From Conus ventricosus (lineage: Eukaryota > Mollusca > Gastropoda > Neogastropoda > Conidae), in assembly GCA_018398815.1 (NCBI GenBank), contig CM031596.1, forward strand, positions 66,965,449-67,029,448: a DNA stretch of 64,000 nucleotides, given 5' to 3'. The notes under the pieces were generated by a model that was not told the DNA's origin, did not search any database, and saw only the letters and a program-made list of their open reading frames with translations. Below, in pieces: positions 9,401-62,150 of the stretch (its first letter is position 1; every line of letters starts with the position of its first letter). Position numbers and translations under genes: made by a program.

Positions 9401-12400
9401 CCAATACCCAGTTAGGCAACTTTCTATCCCACCTACCCCCTCTCTATAGGGCTGCAGGTCAGCTATCTGTACCACTATTCGCCAGCTCGGCGGCCCCCCC
9501 TTTTAGAATAACTCCCTTCTCAGAGAGAATCAAAGGGGGTAGCTCTACGTGAGTCTCAGTCCCCTAGGCGGGTCCCCCTTTGGGACCTCTTCATCCACCT
9601 TGACGCTCTCAGAAAACCCCTTATTGGGGACCCCAGAGACAGTGCCTTCCTTGTCTCTCTTTCAAGTTTCTTCCCAAATTCTTAGCCAAGAATCAGGACC
9701 GGGCACAGCCTCTCCCTCCATCGACATCCGCTCACTCGCGGATATCTTGGGAAAAGGGGAAAGCGGGGGGACATGGACCTGTGCTCTTCTAGGTGTCTGA
9801 GATACTACTGGGAACGCTCGCGCCCCAGGCGCTCCTCCCAGAGACGTCTCCTCATTCCATCAACCCCAATCATCATAAAAACTTCTCTGCTGGCACTGTC
9901 TCTGGGTGGCTTTCCAGATGGTCAGATCTGCTTACGCCCAGGCATACAGTGAAACCTCCGTAACCGGACCACCCACGGGACCCGCCAAAAGTGGTCCACT
10001 TACAGAGGTGGTCCGCTTACGGAGGTAGGGGTGTGTCACTGAGTGCCGGGGGGAAGGAGGGGGTGGTAGTGGGTGTGTGCATGTGTTAGGGGCATTTCTT
10101 TATATTATTATTGTCCGTTTTTCACAGACTCATTTAATAAATCAAAATGTCTAAAATTGTACTGTACAGGTATATGAAAAGGCCTTTATAAAAAGACAGG
10201 CAGTGGTATGCGAAGGCTTTCATTTAAAAAAGTTTTCCATTGTTGTTTGTTTTGCGGCTGAGAGAGCACACATCCCTTCTTCCAACTTGTAGAGTACAGG
10301 AAGCAAGTGAGTGGCGTCTTTGTTCAAGACAAAGGACTTGAGCTCCTCAACATAATCCAGTGCCTGTTTGGTTGTCTTGAGGGCCAGTTCTGTTGATCTT
10401 GTGGACTCTGTCTCCTTCATGTCATTGTCTGAGGCACTGCCATTGAAGTCATCCAAGACACTTTGCACTAAATTTGTGTCGTCGTTGTTGCACGTGTCCA
10501 GGTTTTCATCGCATTGGAGGTAGTCGTCCATGCTCTCACTGTTCAGCTCGAAGGTCTTCTGGACTTGTGTTATCAAACTTGCCAGTGGGATGTTGTCTTC
10601 ATCTTCAAAGTCGTCGTCGTTTGCAAGACAATCATCAGTCATCCCAGCCTTTGCGAAGCATTTTTTCACCGTTGTGGGGCTCACTTCTTTGACAGACGCT
10701 GCTATCCAATTGATGGCATCCAGGACAGAAATGCACTGGTTTATGTTGGCAATGTCTTCCTTTTTTTCCATCTTGGCAAGCACTTTTTGAAGGAGCCTTC
10801 TTCGGTACCTCTGCTTGATGGCCCTGATGATGCCTTGGTCCAGAGGTTGAAGGACGGAAGGGGTGTTGGCTGGCAGATAAACCATCTTGACGTTGGACAG
10901 CTGGAGGCCCCTAGGGTGGCTGGGGCGTTGTCAAGAAGAAGCAGAACATTCCTATGTTGACGACGCATTCTTTTGTTGAAGTCATTGACCCATGCCAAAA
11001 AAACGCCAGTGTTCATCCATGCTTTTTTGTTGAACTGCCATGTGACAGGCATATGGTCAACATTCTTGAAACATCTTGGGTTAGCGCTTTTTCCTATGAC
11101 TAGGGTTTTCTCGAACTCTCCTTGCATGTTGACACAAAAGGAGGCAGTCAATCGGTCCTTGGATTTCTTACCGCCCTTGTATTCTTCACCTTTCACCCTA
11201 AGAGTCTTGTCAGGAAGTGCTCTGTAGAAAATGCCGCTTTCATCCATGTTGAAGACATCGCGTGGTTGTATCCCTTCAATATCTCTGGCAGCTTTTCTTT
11301 CCATGCAGAGACTTGATTTGCATCAACGGAAGCGCTTTCACCACATATGACGGCAGCATTGATGTTGTGGCGATGTTTGAATTTGTCGAGCCAACCATTT
11401 GATGCTTTGAAGTCGGGCGTGTTCTGTGCTTCTGCGAATTCTTTGGCCTTTTCTTGTATTAATGGTCCACTCAATGGCAAGCTCAATCCCCTGGCCCTTG
11501 TAAACCATTCAAAGGTAAGACTGTCGATCTCTCTCTCAAACTGTGTGTCTTCAAGCTTGAGTCTTTTTCTGTCATCATTTGTGTTTTCTTCAAACGCAGT
11601 CATCCATTCTGCTTTTCGTTTCAAGATTCTCTGGACTTGCGACTTCCCAACGCCATATTCTGCAGCAAGTTGTTGTTGTGATTTTCCATTTTCGCTTTTC
11701 CTAATCAGCTGGACTTTGTCTTTAATTGTCAGTTCCTTCGCCTTCGCCTGTTTCCCTGCCATGTTTGCTAAGCAAGTGAAGCGAGTACAGGTGTATAGAA
11801 GCTTGTGGACTGTAAAGCAGCTATTGAATTGTTTATGAGTTCCTATTCATCACATTTGTCGCACTACACGATCCCGTGCAATGTGTGGAGTGAACTCTTA
11901 CTCTCTCTACATGGTGGTCCGCTTAAGGAGGTTTTAGGCCAGTTTGGGGCCAAAAGTGGGTGGTTCGGTCCGGATACGCGAGGTGGTCCGGTTACAGAGG
12001 TTTTTAATAGTCATACAAAGAAGGAAGAAATTCGGGACCAGAGAAAAGTGGTCCTAGTAACGAGGTGGTCCGCTTACGGAGGTGGTCCGCATGAGAGGTT
12101 CCACTGTATAAGGATCTCCCCATCGCATCTCCTCAGGCCCATGAGGTCAGAGCGCTGGCCACTTCCGCAGCGTTCCAGCGCTCTGTCCACTTGTGCCACC
12201 TCCTGGAGGCAGCCTACTGGCGTGTGGAAAATCCCTTCGTAAACTTTTATTAGGGATATCAGCATGACCAGGGCTGATGGTTCTAAGGGATTTCTTTTGC
12301 GGCTAACGCAGCCATATCTGTTCCACTTCTAACCCCAAGAACCATTAGGGCACTCAGCCCTCCTCCAATTCCTTTAGATTCTGCTATGGTCTGACATGGT

Positions 12401-28430: not shown

Positions 28431-29425
28431 CCAGCTGTTGTGGCAAAGTGGTTAGCATCTCGGATCCCAACTGAGAGGCTGTAGGTTTTATTCCCAAAAG
28501 GTACCTCGAAGTTGGAGTGTGGCTGCCCACGTGGCGGGGTAATAAAAAATGGTCGCACACGTAATGTTCTCAAAACCCAGCTGATGCATTTGTACCATAT
28601 GTTCAAGTACTTTGGCTGTTCAGATGATCCCTGGAGTCTTTTAGCCAAGGTATGACAACAACAACAACATTCCCAAAAGGGACACTTATTTGTGGGATTT
28701 TTCCTTCCCAACCACCTCATATGCTGTGAGCTCAACTGGGAAGGCTGGGACCATACAGTCAGGATTTATCCACTTATTATCTTGAGAGTGTTGCTCAAAT
28801 TTCCTGACAAACACTACAGGTGTCTGTATCCCTTTGGCCTGGTTGACATTCAAATACATTATGAAAGTAAGCATAGAGCACACCCCTGTCATGCAGTCTC
28901 AGTCCTGAATGGAAATACATAACATCTTCTTCATCCTCATCCTCATTGATCAGCATAAAAAGAAGTTCCAAATTCTATGGCCCTTCATATCTTGCTCTCG
29001 TGTTGACCTCAGTTTTGATATCCTCTCTCTGTCTATGCTCTTGGTGGAGGTCTGTCGGGTCCACTGGTATAGCAAATCCATGGAGACTGTCACTGAATGA
29101 ACATGGTGAAGCCCTCAGGAGGGAGATCTCACCGATGCTGGCTCTGTCACTATGGAATCGTAAAGCGGAGGCTTAGTAGATGGTGTCCTGCATAATTGTG
29201 TTAGATCAGAACAGACCCCACTGAAGTGAAGTGACTCGGCAGCAATGCCGTGCCTTCTTAGGTGGGTTGCCTAATGACGACTCAATACTGACTACTCCCT
29301 GTGGATTGCTGTTGCTGGGGCCATGACAGGACAAGCCAGGCTGTGGCTGTGGATGGGGAGGCGAAATGAGCGGCATGGGCGCAGTGCCACAGAAGTGGCA
29401 CAGGAGATGAGATGGTAAAGAGAAA
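28431..29425 (+). mobile_element. ~850-bp tRNA-headed repeat (family 1), copy A, with a nested insertion
   Basis: It matches in order the family copies at 60454 (+) and 33694-34547 (-). The degenerate tRNA-like head (TGGCAAAGTGGTTAGC) is at 28441. The body includes the GAGAGTGTTGCTCAAATTTC block, the GGCTTAGTAGATGG block and the tail GATGGTAAAGAG. A 167-bp unrelated insertion at 28502-28668 interrupts the head. The copy lies just downstream of METTL23, antisense to it. Confidence 0.8.
28502..28668 (+). mobile_element. Truncated family-2 SINE nested in repeat copy A
   Basis: It is bracketed by the 12-bp direct repeat ATTCCCAAAAGG (28490-28501 and 28669-28680). The insert shares GAAGTTGGAGTRTGGCTGCC and the following block with the SINE at 60075-60120, lacks the tRNA head, and ends in (CAA)n: a 5'-truncated retroposed copy. 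Confidence 0.75.
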
Positions 29426-29866: not shown

Positions 29867-32141
29867 CTGGAAAAAACAAACAAACCCACAAGTGTTATTC
29901 CATTCAAACAAAATGAAATTCAAATACATGTTTGAAATTGGATACAAATAAAAACCAAGACTTGCTTTACACTTAAAACAGAAAGTGTGATGGGTGGATA
30001 TGTTCCACCTTCATTTCATCCTATGCTAGAAAACATTTAAAGTTTTGATGTTTCCTTGAACTTACTTATGCTTGAGAGTGGAACCTCTGTTGACAACATG
30101 TCTATGCAATGAGTCCCTCATCTAATGACCAAGAAATTTTTGAGGGAACATTTTTCACAAATATCATTTTCAACCTCAGTAGAAAAGGCAGCCAACTTAC
30201 CTACAGTCAGTGACACATTTCATGCTAAACTGTTGAAGAAAGAGGAAGGTAAAAGGTTTTACTTCCCAGTCCTTTACTTGGTTCAAGCCCTCTTGAATTC
30301 TAACAGTCGTTTTGCACAGTTTTGTTTTCCTACTGATGTGAACTTATGAGACTGAACAAAACTTTGAACATATACAACATGGCATTAAACCCTTGTGTGA
30401 GGATGGTCTGAACAGGAATTTGCTTGTTCTTTTGTGCATCGACTAATTGTCACAGTATGGTAAGTTCTGAACATTTCCTGTTTCATACACTTTATGATCG
30501 TTGCACTATCTTATGATTGAACATGGACACATAACAAGGTTATGATCTGGTCCTGTGCAGTCACTGAGGCAACAGCAGACCTGTTCGCCCACACAATTTT
30601 ACTGTATATTTTGTACCAAAAAAAAAGATCTACAACTATGATAAACTGAAAAAAAAGAAAAAAAATTGAGAAAAATCTGGACATGCCGTTACAATGCATG
30701 TAACAAAAATACGTTGATGGATACTAATGAAAACTAGAGGGAAACTGTGATTGGCAACATATGCAAACACAAAACTGTAATGGCTAATGCATGTCACAAA
30801 ATTAAGCACAAAGAATGCAAAACCTCCCATTTCTGTTTTGGCTTTGTGGCTGTACAAGCAGCAGCAAAAATTATATAAACACAAATGATCTTGGCTTCAG
30901 TACAATCGTCCATTCAGAAATCTGTCTTCTGTTCTGTCAGACACAGAAAGCCTGGATGCAGTCCAAATAAAGCCAAACTAATGGCATCAATACAAAGAAA
31001 TGTATTGGTTTTTGCCTGGTAACTTTTTTTTCTACCCTTGAAACAATTATTACATTTTGTGCCTCCTATCTTGAGGCTCTGCATTTGTACCTGTTGTAAA
31101 AACCTTCACTATTTTAAATATCAATTCATTATTGCAAAAATATTTACATTTATGCAAATAAGAGTTTTTGAACGTTAGATTTTAATTTTATGCAAAATAT
31201 GGATACAATAATACACCAACCAACCTTCGTTTTTGGTATGAACACCAGAACTGACATCCAGGATTGCGTGTGAGCAAGAAGGAAATTGTGACCAACACAT
31301 CTTCAAAATCTGTTGAAACAACAGAAACAAAAAAATAAACACGAATCAGGGGTGCATGCAAAAAGACGCGAGTGGAAGGCACCAAAACCTACTAAAGGCT
31401 GAAAAAAGATCATAAACAAAAGCCTGCGTCTTGCTTAGCAGTTGCTGGTCATAGGAATGAGGGGTTGGGTGACAACTCTGCACTAAAGGGAGGGAAGAGT
31501 GACTAGCCAGAAGACGGGCAGACTTGCCTGTGAGTATTGGTACTGTGTTAGCCATGTAAGTTTGGGCTGGCAGAGCGGACTACTGGTTGTAGCTTGCACC
31601 AGTTTCACACTGTATATTATTCACATGGGGGGGGGGGGGGGGGGGGGGGGTTAGTAAGTGGTGTCCTGCATATGTTGGATCAGAACAGGCACCACTGAAC
31701 ACTGCATTGACTTGGCAGCAGTGCAGTGTCTCCCCTGATGGGTTGCTCTTGATGGCTTGACATTGACTGCTCCCTGTGAATTGCACGTGCCAGTTCTGTG
31801 GTGGACTGGGCTGGGCTGCAGCTGTGGACGGGCGGTCGGAATGAACGCGTGGGTACAATACCACTGAGGTGTCCCAGAAGATGGGACAGTGAAAAAGGAA
31901 AAATAAAAAAAAGAGAAAAAACAATACACAAAACAAAAGAAAAAAAAAATTAGTATCTACACAGGGGTTAGATCAACCTCCCCTCACTGATGTAAGGAAA
32001 ATAAATCTATGAAGGACACGCGCGCACACACACACAAACACCTGCAAATTCAACTAGATGTATTACATGGAAATACATCTTGCCACAAAAAAGTAACGTC
32101 CATAATTGTTTTCTGTCCTACTTCCTGTGCCACCTCAGTGG

Positions 32142-32178
<37 letters not shown>

Positions 32179-35100
32179 ATGCCACTCATTCTTGCTCCCT
32201 GTCCGCAGCCACTCCCGGGCCTGTTCCACAGAAACTCGGCACAGGTCCACATGGAACAGTGAATGTTGTCATCATGAGGCCCCCACCAGAGATGTACTGC
32301 ATGCTGGGGTGCAAGCCACTTCAGTGGTGTTCAGTGGTGCTTGTTCTGATCCAACACACACAGGATGCCACTTCCTAAGCCAGCCCCCCCCCCCCCCCCC
32401 CCCAAACCAGTGATAGTAGCTGCCACATCATGGAGGCAGCAGCATGAGTGAACATCCTCCTCCAGAGGGTGTCTCCACATCCCTCAGATAACAGAATATT
32501 GATTAATATTGGTGATGTTATGGGCAATATAAAGGCAGACTGCTGCATTCCTGTCATGAAGAAAAAAGAGATCTGGTTATCTTTAACAACAACAACCAAA
32601 AAAAACATTCCCTTTTCATTCTTACTGAAACATACAGTCCTGTACTTATAAAATTGTATAAAAAGATGCATGGTGGCAGTGTGATCAATCCAGCATAATG
32701 CCAGTCAACAACAAAACATGCGGTTCAGCCATACTTTCAATGCCCAACTTTCAACTGTCTCACCTTTGGTGTCATAAAAACAGTCGGATCCCAGAATGAT
32801 GTCCACCACAGGTAGCTGGAGAAGGTTAGGGGTCACTAGACCCCATGTCAGTGGAACAATTTTGACGTCTGTAAGCTGATTGGCCAGAACACTCTCATGA
32901 CAGTTACGTAGACAGTGAGGGAGAAGGGCACTGTCACTGAGAATCACCTTGGCTCCACATTTGGCAGCAACTACACCACACAGAGCTGTCCCACTCCCTA
33001 TCTGTATACAAATATTTTGTTTGAATTATATGTATGAAATGACCATTCTTAACCCTTTCCCTGCCACAGGATAAGAGCTTATCTGTATTGCTGAGTGCCG
33101 GGGCCAAATTCTGCTTTTTGCAGTAGGTTCACTCATCTGTTCACTATTCATTCATGTGAGATATCTCTTAGATTTTTTTTCTTTTTTTTTTCTTATACCC
33201 TGTGCTATGATGTGGTATCATAATAATTTGATTTTGCTGGTTATTAGTATGACAAAAATAAACATAATCAAGTGTTTTTGTAATAAGTACCCTGTAGCAG
33301 ACACGGTTACGGTTGTACAAGATCGTGAAAATGACCCCATAATAGACACGGGGCAAGCAGGGAAGAGGTTAATGATTGTTGAGAAAAAAAAACTATAAAA
33401 ACTATCTCGTACAAAACTTGACAACAGGAATTGCAAAGGCCCAACATACTAGATTTTCAACAGCAACAAAAAATCACATGCATACATCTAACATCAACAT
33501 GTGCTGTTAACATCTGAATGAGAATGGGTGCACATGCACATTTGTACATACACCTATCCCATGCAGGTATTCATGACTCGTGTGTTTGACATTGCGTCTT
33601 ACCTAAAATCATTGAGATGGCCATTGAGATGAATGATTATGCCATAAAACATAGCAAATCTTGTGACTGAAATCAAAACACCTGAAAGAACTTTTGTTGT
33701 TGTTGTTGTTGCTGTCCCAACCTCTGCGCCATCTCAGAGGCAGTGCACCCACGCCGCTCATTCCGACACCCCGTCCACAGCCACAGCCCGGTCGGTCCCG
33801 CCGCAGCCCCGGCACCGGCAATCCACAGGGAGCAGTCAATGTCAAGTCGTCAAGAGGCAACCCACCAGAGGAGACACTGCACTGCTGCCGAGTCACTTCG
33901 GTGGTGTTCAGCGGCGCCCGTTCTGATCTAACATACACAGGACACCACCTACTAAGCCCCTACTGACGACAATAATTGCTTAGTCACGGAGCCGGCGTGA
34001 GTGAGCTCTCCCTCCGGAGGGCACCACCACGTCTGTCCAACGACAGCCCCCATGGACTCGCCGATACCAGTGACCCCGACGGAACCAAACCAAGGCCACA
34101 GACGTGGAGAGGACATCGAAATTGAGGTCACCATGAGAGCAGGGCGTGAAGAGCCACAGAATTTGAGACATTTTTTTAAAATGCTGATCGATGAGAATGA
34201 GGATGATTAAGATGATGCTACGGATTTCCATTTCGGTCTGAGACTACATGACAGGGCTGTACTCTACGCGTCCTTTCATAATATATCCTGGCGTCAACCA
34301 GGCCCGAGAGATACAGGCACCTGCAGTGTTGGTCAGGAAATTTGAGTAACACTCTCAGAAACGCATCCATTAAGTGGATAGAAAGTCGACTGTGTGGTCC
34401 CAGTCTTCCCAACTGAGTCCGCAGCAACTCAACCCTGGGTAGGAGCCGGTCGGGGCAGAAAAACCCACATGACTTCTGATGGGATTCGAACCCACGATCT
34501 CCCAGCCAGGAGTCCGTGACGCTACCCACTTCGCCACGGCGGCTGGTCACCTGAAAGAACTTAATCTAGCTTTTATGTCACCAGTCCTGTTGCCATCCAT
34601 TGACTCCACATCACAATCAAAGTTAGAAATTACAAAATCCGCATTTTAAACAAAGACATGGATTTTTTTTTATCCATCCTTGCAAAGAAGATTCTTTCCC
34701 TTTCAATTATGCACAATCCAACAAATTTGACTTCACAAAAAAAAGTAATGCATAACAAATGTAGCTGAACATGTAAACACAGCATCCAACAATATTTGAG
34801 TAACAATTTAAATTGAGAGTAAATATGAAATATGGAAGGTTTTTCTTTCTACACATTACGCCTTTCTCATCCTCACAAATCCGACTTCTCTTTCTCACAG
34901 TTCATCTTCCCAACCTATTACCCAGCAAGCCCACTCTACAGCCGATACATCCCTCTACACCTGCGAAGGACATGAATTTTAGCCTCACAAAAAAAAATTG
35001 TGAACATATTTGTATAATATGAATTCTTGAGTGATGGAAGAGTCGGTGGACACATTGCTGTCACAGTAGTATACAGTTTTGAGCTGAGGCATGCTGTGCA

Positions 35101-45277: not shown

Positions 45278-47165
45278 CACACACACACATTGGGATTATA
45301 GCTATTCTGAAGGTGTGTTCAGCTTAGTGTGGCAGTCACCTACCCTTTTTTTTGTTTTTTATTTCTCTTTTCATTACCATCTTAAATTCCATTAATTTAA
45401 TACCACAGCTAAAGGTTGGAATCATTATATAGAAATATATATATATATATATTTTTTTTTTTTCTTCTAAAAAACATAACTGCATACTGCCCTTTCAGGG
45501 CGGGTAGTCTGTATGGAAGTGGAGTACAGAGAGTGTACACTATATTGCTTGTGTATTTGAGTTATTCATTACTGTTGTTCTTCCTCTCACATTTAAAAAG
45601 AAGTTTCATCTTAAGTTTTGAAAAAGTTTATGAAATCAAGCTTCATGACTTGATTTGTGGAAGGATTGAAGTTGACATTTTTCAGCAGTACTACTATGCT
45701 TGATGCGCTTTTGATGTTCTCTTGCAACTGTGTCGTGTGTTCATTTTCAGATTGAAGATGACCCTGATGTACTGGACCAAAAGTGTCAGGAATTGGCACA
45801 GATGTTGCAGTCAGCTAAAAATGCTGTTTTGTACACTGGAGCTGGCATCAGTACGGTAAGTTTAATCAGTATTTTCTGAATAATGTTATGCTTGTATGTA
45901 TGAGCTCGTGCAAGGTCCTTTGGAGATTATCTTTCATTCGTGAGTGTGCATGCCTCTGTGTGTGTGTGTGTGTGTGTACGTTTTGTGCATGCACGCATAT
46001 AGATGGTTAAATGTATTCAATTGTGTGCAATTTGAAATGTTGTTTATTTTTTGGCTTGTCTCATCTGTGCCACTTCAGCGGCATTCCCCCCTCCCGCCCC
46101 CTTCCCGTCCCTTCCCACCTCCCCAGCTGTTCATTAGGACTTCTAGTCCACAGTCATAACCTTGCCTGTCCTGCCGCTGACCTGGCACAGGCAATCCATA
46201 TGAAGCAGTCAGTTTCATGTCATTGAGCAACCCACTGGAGGAGACACTGCATTGCTGCCGAGTTACTTCAGTGGTGTTCGGTGACGGCTGTTCTGTTTCA
46301 ACATAGGCAGGCATCACCTACAAAGCCCTCTGGTGATGAAGAAAAAAATTGCTTTGTCGGAGAGCCAGCATCAGCGAATGTTCTGTTCTAGAGGGCGCTA
46401 CCATGTTTGCCCAGTAACAGTCCCTGTAAATTTTCTGATACAAGCGATATGCACACAAACTCACTTAGAGCATGGAAATGGTGAGAAATCAAAACATAGG
46501 TTGTCATGAGAGCAGGGAATAAAGGACCATTGAATTTGATATTTTGTTTATAATGCTGAGTGATGAGAAAGTGTATGGTGAAGATGATGCTATGGATTTC
46601 CATTGTAGTCTGAAGTTGCATGCCAGGGCTGTAGCTATGGTTGCTTTCATTACATACCCATGTGTCAGCCAGGCCCACAAGATACAGACACCTGTGGTAT
46701 TGGTCAGGAAATGTGAGCCACACTCTAAGCCGATGAAACTTAACTGTATGGTTCCAGTCTTCCCAGTTGCAAGCTCAGCACTTGGCAGAAAAATCCACAA
46801 GTAAATGGCTGTGAGATGAATCAAACCCATGACCTCCCAGCTGGGAATCTGTGATGCTAACATTTGTAACAACTGAGGAACAGGGGTTGGTTTAATGGTT
46901 TAAATCATTTTCTTTGGAGCTGAAGTCTCTAGGCATGTCAGTGGCACAAAATTTTAAAAGGTAACAGATATTCATGCTCCACCGGATTGTCAGTGCTGAT
47001 GCTACAACAGGGCATGCCCGAGTGTGGTTCTTTTTGGGTTTGCCACGATGGGCAGCATGTTAGTAATGCCACTGATGAGACAGGAAAGATGAAACAGTAC
47101 CAAAAAAAGTCGTATATACTGTATTGCTAGCCTTGAATTTAAGATTTGACTTCTTCATGCAACAT

Positions 47166-50200: not shown

Positions 50201-53200
50201 GAGTCCAGCAACACAAGTTTTGGTAACACAAGAACTTGGTTTGCACAAGCATTGTTTACATTTTGACTAGAAACTGCGGTTTTCCTTGTCGATATTCTCC
50301 ATTAATGCGATTCTTAATCTTGTAACATGAATTTTTGCTTGAGAAGTGAATTTGCAACCTACGGACAAGTGAAATGAAAAACTGCCTGTTTTCTTACCTT
50401 TCATCATAAAATACTACTTTTCTGAGAAAATGATAATCAAATGCCATGATGGCAATGTTGCTTCCCCGTTTTTTGATCGGATCTTTTCAAATGTCTTTGA
50501 TGTTCCCTCCTGCGATCAGTTTAGAAGACTGCAGTGATTGCCTCACGAAAGGTAAGCTGTTGGTGATTGGAAGTCAACAGACAAATGATGATTTTGATAT
50601 TGGGGAAAAAAAAAGAAAATTCTTGCTGAACTTGGCAGCTCTGATGTGATCCTGATTGTTGTATATTGTCTGATGATCTCATTTGACTTTACAGTGAGTT
50701 GTATGAACTGCTGTTTCCCTCATTTACACTCTTTGATTCTGTAATCTTAGTGATTGTTTTTAGAGGTGTGTGTGTTTTTAATGAAGGGAAATACAGACAG
50801 AGGTTTGAACTTCATATAACTTCTCTTTCACATGTCTTTGTATCCTTGTAGACATTTGTTGGACAGGTCAGTGTACATCTGTGATTGTCGTGCCTTGTCT
50901 ACTTTTTCCCTTTCACATATTTGTTCCAACTTGAACATGCATAACTTGATTTGTTAGCGTAGATATTCCTTAAAGTGAACAGTCCCACTAGTTGTAAAAT
51001 ACTCCACTGTATATTTATGAAATCTGAGTCTAAAATGTCTGAGAAAATGAATATTCTCAGTTTCTTTGTGCGTGTTGTTTGACAAAGGTTTGCCGTTGCA
51101 TGCTGGAGAAGTGACTTGCAATTCTGATTTCTTTCCCTTCTCTGCTTCCTCTCAACCCTGCAATGATTTGTTATGCTTTTCAGATGTGCAAGAACTGCAA
51201 GCCACAAAAGGAGTACCTGAGGTTGTTCGATGTGACCGAGCGCACAGCAAAATGGCGACACAAGACTGGCCGCACCTGCAAGAAGTGTGGTAGCGGGCTT
51301 GTTGACAGTATTGTTCACTTTGGGGAGAAAGGAGGACTCAAGTCCCCGTACAAATGGAAACAGGCTGTCAAGGCTGTTAGCAAGTCGGACCTCATTATCT
51401 GTCTGGGGTCAAGCTTGAAGGTATGTGCACACATGACCATAAAGGTTTTCTGCTATATCAAAGACTTGCATGGTTCCTTGAAGTGAATCTCCTGTATTGG
51501 TAACAATGTTCTTCCAGGCTGCACGTGGTGTATGAGTTTGGGTGGAGTTGATTCCTTCCATCTGGCCATGTTTTTCTTGTGTTGTTTGAAAAAAGGCTTG
51601 TTTTTTTGCATGCAGGAAATGTGACTGGTAGTTGCTTGAGCATTCAGCTAGCTGACTTGCTTCAGTCATCCCCAAACCGTAGTATTGCTGGAATGATATG
51701 AAAAGAGTAAACATTCAACCGTCACAGTTAGATCGTTCAGGTCCTTATTTTTTCTGTAAACTCCCTTGGCCAAGGAGTTTATATATATACACCTACATCT
51801 TGCTTGTCTGTCTATTAGCAGCATCATGCTAAATCTACAGAATCAGTTTCAATGAAACTTGCAGGAAAGATCGAATAACAGCCCTGATGTGGCCCTTTGC
51901 GGTCGGCTGGGCTATAAGCAACATTATCTTATCTTATCTTATCGAATAAAGCGCAAAGATGAACAAACCCATTAAATTTTGGTGCTGATCTGTGGCGGAG
52001 ATCCAGGTCAGAGGGCAAATCCAGGATACATTCAGCAAGAGTAGCAAACTGCATGGAAAGATAGAAAATGGCCCACCGGCAAATCCATTAAATATTGGTG
52101 CAGATCTATGGTGCAGATCCAGATCAATCCACAGGAAGCTTTCAGTGTTCAACCCTTGTGGAGGTCTATGCTGTTCCACACACACTTCTTTGATTGCTTT
52201 CTAGGAACAAATTATTATTTTTTGTTTAATGTTCAAACATGGAAGTTGTCAGTACTTGTTGAGGGTTATTTTTAGATTGTGGGTATACCATTGACGAATA
52301 GTGATTTTTTCCTTCAAGTAAATAAATATAAGTAGTCGGTAACAAATGAAGTTGTTGCCAGAGTTAGGTCAAAAAGATTCACAAAACATATGCAGTAGAG
52401 TGTTGCTGTTTTCCGTATGTTCTACAGAATAAAAGAGATAGGATTAAAGTGGCTTCAAATTCTTTTTTTTTTCTTTCTGTTTGCTGTCTCATCGCTTGTG
52501 CCACTTCAGTGGCATCATCCTTACTCAACTCATTCCAGCTCCCTGTCCATAGCCACCCACACCCTGCCTTGGCTTAACCCACCCAATGCAGCCTCACCAG
52601 CGACAATCCACAGGAAGCTGTCAGTGTCAAACTGTCTTGAGACAGTTCAGAATAAATGTAAATCTTAGTATTATAGCAACCAGTACATCATTAATGAGTG
52701 AAAGAAGAGTGTTCTTTTTCCTTTCCTTGGCAAACTAAACTGATGCTTTAAACTTACTTGGCATGAAGAATTGTTTGTGATACTGAGAGAAAAAATATCC
52801 AACAAACTCTTTCTGGATGGGTTGTTCACTGTTTCTGGACTAAATTTCATATAGCTCTTACCCACAAGGTATGGTAACCTTCAGCGAGTTTCTTTATTTT
52901 ATCAGCTACATGCAAGATTGGGGGAAAAGAATTGCATACGTTTGTTTTCACATTCACGCTGAAATAAAGTAGTTTATAGATAAATATGTCCTTAGAATTC
53001 AGCTAAATTTAAAAAAGTTACTCCAGTTTCAGATACCTGTAAACTACAGTTTTCTTTGGTTCATGTTAAAAGAGCCTCTGCATTGTAACGTTTTTTAATG
53101 TTATTTTTTTAAAATGATCATGCTTAATGGCGATGCAAACCTATTCCACAATGTTCTTACTTGAAGTACTGAAAGTTTTCGTTGTTCATGTTATTTTTGC

Positions 53201-59802: not shown

Positions 59803-60175
59803 GGGCCGGAATAGCTGAGTTGGTAGAGCGCTGGACTCGTGATCCTGAGGTTACGGGTTCGAATTTCGGCACAGGGGGATTTTTCCCTCGGAGTTAACAC
59901 TGGTTCTGACTCCATTCCCCATACAGTCCTTCGAATGAGACAATAAACCGAGGTTCCGTGTGTGAACACACGCACAACATCTTGCACACACATAAAATCC
60001 CATCACCAACTTTCGGAAGAGAAGGCCAGTTTGGCCGTTGGTATGGATGACACGTTACACATAGCATGCACCTTCCCTGAAGTTGGAGTATGGCTGCCTT
60101 AATGGCGGGATAAAAACACGGTCATAGTGTCAGAATCTTCAACTTGATGACGGTGGACACTCGAAGAAAGAAGTA
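59803..60175 (+). mobile_element. tRNA-derived SINE (family 2), longest copy
   Basis: The head GGGCCGGAATAGCTGAGTTG contains the A box (TAGCTGAGTTGG) and the B box (GGTTCGAATTTC), then GGGGGATTTTTCCCTCGGAG. The body continues through GTCCTTCGAATGAGAC, CACATAAAATCCCATCACC, GGTATGGATGACACG and GAAGTTGGAGTATGGCTGCC to a GAA-rich end. It is the fullest copy for defining the family. Confidence 0.8.
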
Positions 60176-60453
60176 TGGGTGGAGAAAGAGAGGAGCATGC
60201 AGTTAGATTCTAATGTAATAGACAGATTTGGTAAGAGTAGGTCAGGGTAGGATAAAGAAGTTGGATAGAGAAGGAATATGGGTATAGTAATTAAAAGGGG
60301 TGAAGATGGTGGACCCCCTCAGGCCAGAAACATATGGGTATAACCAAGTCGGTTCACGATAATGTTTCATTGGCAGCATACAAGAAGACAGCGCCTGAAA
60401 AAACACATAATGAAACATAAATAAATGGCAAGCAACAATAAAAGGACATGATA

Positions 60454-61307
60454 CCAGCCGCCGTGGTGAAGTGGTTAGCGTCGTGGACTCCCGGCTGGGA
60501 GGTTGTGGGTTCGAATCCCATCAGAGTCATGTGGGTTTTCCTGCCCTGACTGGCTCCTACCCAGAGTTGAGTTTGCTGCGGACTCAGTTGGGAAAACTGG
60601 GACCACACAGTCGAGTTTCATCCACTTAATGGATGCGTTTCTGAGAGTGTTGCTCAAATTTCCTGACCAACACTGCAGGTGCCTGTATCTCTCGAGCCTG
60701 GTTGACGCCGGGATATATTATGAAAGGACGCGTAGAGTACAGCCCTGTCAAGTAGTCTCAGACCGAAATGGAAATCCGTAGCATCATCTTAATCATCCTC
60801 ATTCTCATCGATCAGCATAAAAAAAAAGTCTCAAATTCTGTGGCCCTTCATGCCCTGCTCTCCTGGTGACCTCAGTTTCAACGTCCTCTCCACGTCTGTG
60901 GCTTTGGTTTGATTCCGTCAGGGTCACCGGTATCGGCGAGTCCATGGGGGCTGTCGGACGGATGTGGTGGCGCCCTCCGGAGGGAGAGTTCACTCATGCC
61001 GGCTTCGCGACTAAGCAATTATTGTTGTCAGTAGGGGGCTTAGTAGGTGGTGTCCTGCATATGTTAGATCAGAACGGGCGCCACTGAACACCACTGAAGT
61101 GACTCGGCAGCAGTACAGTGTCTCCTTCGGTGGGTTGTCTCTTAACAACTTGACACTGCTCCCAGTGGATTGCCGGTGCCGGGGCTGCGGCAGGGCCGAC
61201 CGGACTTCGGCTGTGGATGGGGTGTCGGAACGGGCGGCGTGGGTGCACTGCCTCTGAGGTGGCGCAGAGGTTGGGACAGCGAAAAAAAAAAAAATAATAA
61301 AAATAAA
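60454..61307 (+). mobile_element. ~850-bp tRNA-headed repeat (family 1), copy C, full length with ~17-bp target-site duplication
   Basis: The direct repeat AATAAAAGGACATGATA flanks it (60437-60453 and 61308-61324). The head CCAGCCGCCGTGGTGAAGTG has an A box, and the B box GGTTCGAATCCC follows at the expected distance. The body has no long conserved protein frame, and an A-rich tail closes the element. Length 854 bp, the same as copy B. Confidence 0.93.
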
Positions 61308-62066
61308 AATAAAAGGACATGATATTTACAGGGTGGTAAATACAAAAGGGACATGTATATAAGATGGTTTAACAATTCAGCTGATATCAATCACTCTTGT
61401 CCCATTGCCTAGTTTTGTGTTGACTATGTGAGTCGGACACAACATTCGTATCTATCTATGATGGGCTTAGAGTTCAGTCTTTACCACAAATTATTCAATG
61501 GTACTCTTCCTAAAAGCCACTGAATACTATTACTCTTTGTGGAAGACTAATATTAAATTCAAAGTGAAAAATGAAAATAAAGTTCTGAGAGACCAGGCTC
61601 TAAGTAGTTAAGTGAGCCAATGAATACATAAACGACTTGAAGTAGCCAAGTGAGGCCATGAATGAATCATATATATATATTGACCACCCACACATGATAT
61701 AGCTGAGCGGGGAGATAACTAAATAACTATCAGTAGTAGCACAACTAATTATGAAATGGATAAACGAACATAAGATAAACAACAGTTTTCACACAACATC
61801 ACCATCATAAAAACTGATAAAACTGCAAAGAGCCTAAGAAGGCAGCACCTATGAAAGAGGCACAACAGCTACAAAACAACAGTGCCAGTCAGTGACTGTG
61901 TGAGACTGACATGACTGATTAGCATGCTTCCTTTCAATGAGCTGTGTGAGCTCACACAATGTGTGGCGTCTGAAGCAGCAATGCAGTTAGATCCTGCACA
62001 GGTGAGAGCTTGGCCCATGCTGGCAAGTGTGCAAAAACAAACCGAGTCATGTAAAGAAAATAAGAA

Positions 62067-62150
62067 ACAAATTCTGTAGCCCTTCATGTTCTCTTCTCAT
62101 GGCGACCTCATCTTTAATTTCCTCTCTACATTCATGCATGTAGCGATTTT
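62067..62150 (+). mobile_element. Family-1 repeat internal fragment (copy H)
   Basis: Matches the body block CAAATTCTGTRGCCCTTCAT, then TGGYGACCTCA and CCTCTCYAC. Head and tail are absent. Confidence 0.55.

Follow-up and report, generated by a model that had tools for sequence, protein, structure and literature searches.

The 64,000-nucleotide stretch of Conus ventricosus DNA analysed here (the window) raises the question of what kind of element is represented by its two intact long repeat copies, B and C, each of which begins with a tRNA-like head and ends in a simple tail. A preliminary description of the window had read them as a long tRNA-headed SINE, and our analysis arrives at the same identification, given the tRNA head, the flanking target site duplications (TSDs), the A-tail, the 835-bp body without a protein match and the thousands of copies. 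It is very probable (roughly 0.9) that the repeat is a tRNA-derived SINE, of the SINE2 type, whose 835-bp body is followed by an A-rich tail, and that it is mobilised in trans by a LINE accepting A-tailed RNA. The element is real, abundant and recently mobile.

When aligned with each other, copies B and C are identical in 779 of 855 columns (91%) and are copies of one repeat, as had been proposed. Both are flanked by perfect direct repeats (15 bp in B, 17 bp in C), which sit outside the tail, and the tails themselves, (CAA)n in B and A-rich in C, are those given in the preliminary description. The common length of 854 bp is correct for each copy, but the equality is partly luck, because the two copies reach it differently, B with an additional 5' base and a (CAA)n tail, C with an A-rich tail, on a consensus body of 835 bp. 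The coordinates of all copies and of their parts are collected in Table 1.

Table 1. Features of the repeat family within the 64-kb window.
Feature	Position	Strand	Remarks
Copy B, full-length element with (CAA)n tail	33694..34547	-	96.8% to consensus over 1-835
Copy C, full-length element with A-rich tail	60454..61307	+	94.4% to consensus over 1-835
TSD of B, 5' side	34548..34562	-	AAGTTCTTTCAGGTG, 15 bp, perfect
TSD of B, 3' side	33679..33693	-	AAGTTCTTTCAGGTG
TSD of C, 5' side	60437..60453	+	AATAAAAGGACATGATA, 17 bp, perfect
TSD of C, 3' side	61308..61324	+	
A box of B	34526..34536	-	TGGCGAAGTGG; sequence and consensus scan
B box of B	34482..34492	-	GGTTCGAATCC; sequence and consensus scan
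tRNA-like head of B	34471..34543	-	Rfam tRNA, whole model 1-71, 21.6 bits, below gathering score 29
tRNA-like head of C	60457..60529	+	Rfam tRNA, whole model, 20.3 bits, below gathering score 29
T5 run behind head of B	34459..34463	-	Pol III terminator-like
T4 run behind head of C	60536..60539	+	sole copy of 31 with fewer than five T
Copy A, old	28431..29403	+	head 28431-28496, body 28722-29403, split by nested SINE 3' fragment
Copy D, old	46122..46861	-	consensus 21-798 aligned; T5 run and internal A-rich stretch kept
Copy E, 3' part	31645..31889	+	consensus 585-834; begins at expanded G-run
Copy F, 3' part	32176..32488	-	split by expanded G/C-run; main piece 32381-32176, further weak piece to 32488
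Weak 3'-end match	52483..52630	-	consensus 701-835, 68%
Internal fragment, 62 bp	62068..62129	+	consensus 380-441

The 3.52-Gb assembly that contains the window was searched for further copies. The best 40 of 14,278 candidates, picked by score, were scored in a first search; each of them, including copy C, spans almost the full query at 91% or higher, and they are dispersed over 23 contigs, although matches chosen by score give no information on truncation. A consensus consisting of an 835-bp body and an A-tail was derived from 31 copies, i.e. 30 returned loci (of which L001 is copy C itself) and copy B. The sampled copies differ from this consensus by 1.4-4.7%, gaps not counted, and transitions at CpG occur at 4.6%, about four times the rate of other transitions (1.2%). 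Minor states present in at least five of the 31 copies occur at 16 sites, and to judge by eye they point to two subfamilies or more.

The high abundance that had been surmised from the window alone is borne out genome-wide: an exact 39-mer of the element occurs 3,833 times (strands 1939/1894), an exact 24-mer near consensus 703 occurs 6,673 times (3355/3318) and a head-side pattern allowing a variable gap 5,210 times (2588/2622); the reversed-pattern controls of all three gave zero. Contig C1, for which the match lists are complete as far as 60.34 Mb, has 117 matches of the 5' side and 100 of the 3' side in this part, with both sides present in 53 cases. The 24-mer lies 482-521 bp downstream at 34 of 61 places with the 39-mer, and the remaining links between 5' and 3' sides were accepted in a window of 500-720 bp. 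Capture-recapture (117 x 100 / 53) yields about 220 copies on C1 as far as 60.34 Mb, a figure that is low because the copies are of unequal age, and extrapolation to the whole genome gives roughly 13,000 copies young enough to retain these words. Copies and fragments account for 1.3% of 86 kb of flanking sequence around 29 loci, which is a small and non-random sample. One 30-mer of the element had no exact match in viral_contigs, where records close to the window's genome may be absent.

The head of the element is related to tRNA. Its consensus contains an A box, TGGCGAAGTGG, at position 11 and a B box, GGTTCGAATCC, at position 55, both of them perfect and of the usual form, which agrees with the claim that the head carries both boxes; copy C itself reads TGGTGAAGTGG. 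The Rfam tRNA model covers the heads of B and C from its first to its last position. The gathering score of 29 is passed at the head by two of the 29 other copies (L002-L030), namely L019 with 29.7 and L023 with 32 bits, and the heads of B, C and the other 27 copies score below it. ARAGORN detected no tRNA within the window, and the consensus head, folded by itself, yields no cloverleaf (z -1.61; equally good folds in 15 of 200 shuffles). No known RNA emerged as origin of the body: the only Rfam matches in copies B and C besides tRNA lie below the gathering scores. The 5' end, at the head, is constant to within a few bases across the 31 copies.

Traces of the insertion process are equally regular. 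Exact duplications of 10-18 bp flank 24 of the 31 copies, compared with 2 of 930 mismatched flank pairs used as a control; the script had counted 25 copies, from which L013 was dropped as a TTG-repeat artefact. A credible exact TSD of 10 bp is missing in seven copies: besides L013, no exact TSD of at least 10 bp is present in L015, L016, L018, L023, L027 and L030, of which L023 shows an exact 9-mer duplication, whereas in L030 a duplicated 12-mer differs at one position. The edge of the duplication is 0-3 bases away from consensus base 1 in most copies. A simple tail is found in all 31 copies, as an A-run or A-rich stretch in 30 and as (CAA)n in B. Among the 23 copies with a hand-placed TSD, 19 have a C or T immediately ahead of the duplication and 21 have an A as its first base; the second of these numbers is in part forced, since a duplication next to an A-tail can extend over A. 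Judged by their sequence, tail and nick site are compatible with a LINE that accepts A-tails.

The family also has a past within the window, which holds eight copies or fragments, the number originally counted: B, C, A, D and four fragments, one of them weak. Copies A and D, which had been described as full-length and older, are indeed near full length and have an identity of 72-80% to the consensus depending on the alignment. Copy A matches consensus 122-822 in 80% of aligned bases (77% in another alignment, 76% by BLAST), and copy D matches consensus 21-798 in 77% (72% in the other alignment and 72% by BLAST). The long layout is found in A and D as well and hence predates the young burst. 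The best-kept stretches among the seven old pieces lie around consensus 150-240, 270-300 and 600-690. A short G-run near consensus 585 has expanded to long G/C homopolymers in E (31627-31650) and F (32384-32403). Inside copy A there is a SINE-like fragment with a (CAA)n tail (28502-28668), flanked, as far as can be judged by eye, by a 12-bp duplication, ATTCCCAAAAGG.

The long layout might itself be composite, made of a tRNA-SINE of about 365 bp, with its end at an internal A-run, and of a second unit of 470 bp with the present 3' end, the pair having moved jointly. An A-run following CAGCAT near consensus 366 does divide the body: it consists of 6-11 A in 26 of the 31 copies and of three in one, the script finding none in four, and the old copy D reads AAACAAAA at this site. 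One old fragment in L024 stops at consensus 366, but it does so in a GA-repeat and not in a clean A-tail with TSD. Both parts are, however, already present in the old copies A and D, so that any fusion is old, and a free half-element was not seen among the loci examined. A composite origin is possible, yet we hold it to be clearly the less likely history.

For a tRNA-derived SINE moved by a LINE, the sequence allows a life cycle to be proposed. Pol III would start from the A and B boxes of the head, and the RNA would pass the T5-T6 run 8-12 nt behind the head by read-through and continue through the body into the genome-encoded A-tail. A LINE endonuclease would then nick the target at an A-rich site, the reverse transcriptase would prime on the A-tail, and the insertion would leave the duplications of 10-18 bp.

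It is the T-run that makes the first part of this cycle difficult. The only run of at least four T in the consensus is a T5 at 84-88, behind the tRNA-like part; neither it nor the internal A-run near 366 had featured in the preliminary description. Five or more T are present in 30 of the 31 copies, the exception being C, and the old copies A and D have kept the T5. Among the first 100 listed of the 5,210 head-side matches, 60 have T5, 33 have T6, two have T7 and five have fewer, i.e. at least five T in 95. At a divergence of about 2% the retention of the run needs no selection, and the source copies carried it. The T5-T6 run has the form of a Pol III terminator, and this form argues against a simple full-length transcription of the element by Pol III. 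T5 was an effective terminator in an assay with the mammalian B2 SINE, and the addition of one T to TTTT led to nearly 100% termination, according to the consulted part of PMC8466645; if the same applied here, Pol III would have to read through, or the full-length RNA would have to be made by another polymerase.

Such another polymerase could be Pol II; the element would then resemble a retroposed non-coding RNA whose full-length transcript comes from promoters of host genes or of the flanks and whose head is no more than a relic. The T5-T6 run, which should block Pol III by the data in the same part of PMC8466645, speaks for this explanation. Against it, the 5' end of the 31 score-picked copies is constant at the head, as expected from an internal promoter, and the consensus has both promoter boxes, A and B, intact. 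AATAAA is absent from the consensus body, and likewise from positions 791-835 in all 31 copies, so that the A-tail is unlikely to stem from mRNA processing; ATTAAA occurs once in the body, at 365, far from the tail. We regard a Pol II element as improbable.

The preliminary description had itself raised the prospect that the body belongs to a LINE or LTR element with only a chance tRNA-like start. Sequences bearing a reverse transcriptase are very abundant in this genome (92,558 first-look candidates), from which a fragment of a LINE or of another autonomous element could be drawn. Pfam, however, matches none of eight open segments of the consensus, in agreement with the earlier statement that no protein frame is conserved; the TSDs bound the element at its head, and the Rfam tRNA model scores above its curated cut-off in two of 29 copies. 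The last 150 bp of the element, moreover, find no match in six RTE-like LINE loci, taken from 150 scored reverse transcriptase matches, which would have shared them as a common 3' end. A LINE origin of the body is rejected on these grounds as very improbable. A candidate recognition hairpin for a LINE in the folded 3' end was likewise rejected, the fold being no better than that of shuffled sequences (z -0.13).

Several other mobile elements were noted along the way. The six LINE loci (L035-L040) form a young RTE-like family, its clade assigned by eye, with pairwise identities of 97.5-98.8% and reverse transcriptase matches free of stop codons. Three stretches of the window that look LINE-like by eye have no Pfam match, and past their ends no A-tailed partner was seen. 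On the minus strand of the window, 10220-11846 contains pieces of a transposase (Pfam DDE_1, HTH_Tnp_Tc5, CENP-B_N), presumably pogo/Tigger-like.

A non-autonomous LTR element of the Helenus type, which does carry a tRNA-like sequence and occurs in molluscs (bivalves) but has two LTRs and TSDs of 4-5 bp (excerpts of PMC10886601), is ruled out almost entirely by the absence of LTRs (self-comparison of the consensus reveals no direct repeat longer than 8 bp), the A-rich tail and the TSDs of 10-18 bp.

In comparison with known families, the element resembles tRNA-derived SINEs in its tRNA head with A and B boxes, the lack of a protein, the TSDs, the simple tail and the thousands of dispersed copies; it differs from them in the T5-T6 run directly behind the head and in its 835-bp body, which is longer than the often quoted range of 100-700 bp (consulted part of PMC8825457), length being a descriptive and not a mechanistic criterion. 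The Nin-SINE of the limpet Lottia gigantea is likewise a gastropod tRNA-SINE with A and B boxes, but with 369 bp it has less than half the length (excerpts of PMC11121367). The T-runs of Pol III terminator form within the element recall T+ SINEs such as mouse B2; in B2, however, the terminator stands by the 3' A-tail with AATAAA upstream (consulted part of PMC8466645), whereas here the T-run follows the head and AATAAA is lacking. A possible likeness to V-SINEs, which include RUDI of molluscs, concerns GTGGGTTTTTCTG..CCGGCTCCTACCC just behind the head. An approximate V core used as query gave p=0.037 for the first 160 bp and, for bases 71-835, p=0.013 but with the best place elsewhere.

No such family is named in the consulted parts of two Conus genome papers (PMC7900195, PMC3040727), the second of which mentions repeated contigs with weak tRNA homology. 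Four strings of the element and two V-SINE strings are not printed in the PMC texts searched, in which repeats are rarely printed, and our literature search on very long SINEs returned nothing relevant.

The T-run is not confined to this family. A second tRNA-SINE-like family is represented in the window from 59805 on (+) and in L020 from 372 on, with Rfam tRNA scores of 36.7 and 29.7 bits; its tRNA-like stretch at 59805-59871 is the sole match in the window above an Rfam gathering score. Both copies seen (59805 and L020) have a T5 about 10 nt behind the head. A third type of head, GGTTCGAATCCCAGCCATGA, occurs in the flanks of L013 and L018 and lacks a T-run in the 40 nt that follow.

The family may have propagated, in its old as in its young copies, with a functional Pol III terminator fixed immediately after the head, a proposal that we put forward tentatively and as the less likely case. 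If true, the head would normally release a tRNA-like RNA of about 90 nt, and the mobile RNA of 835 nt would arise only via read-through or another polymerase, which would amount to a built-in brake or to a two-RNA design. With its many near-identical copies, the family represents a long SINE that has been active recently, in a genome of very large size, and its T-run makes the question of how tRNA-SINEs pass Pol III termination a testable one. The same layout in the second SINE family hints that the answer may reach beyond this element.
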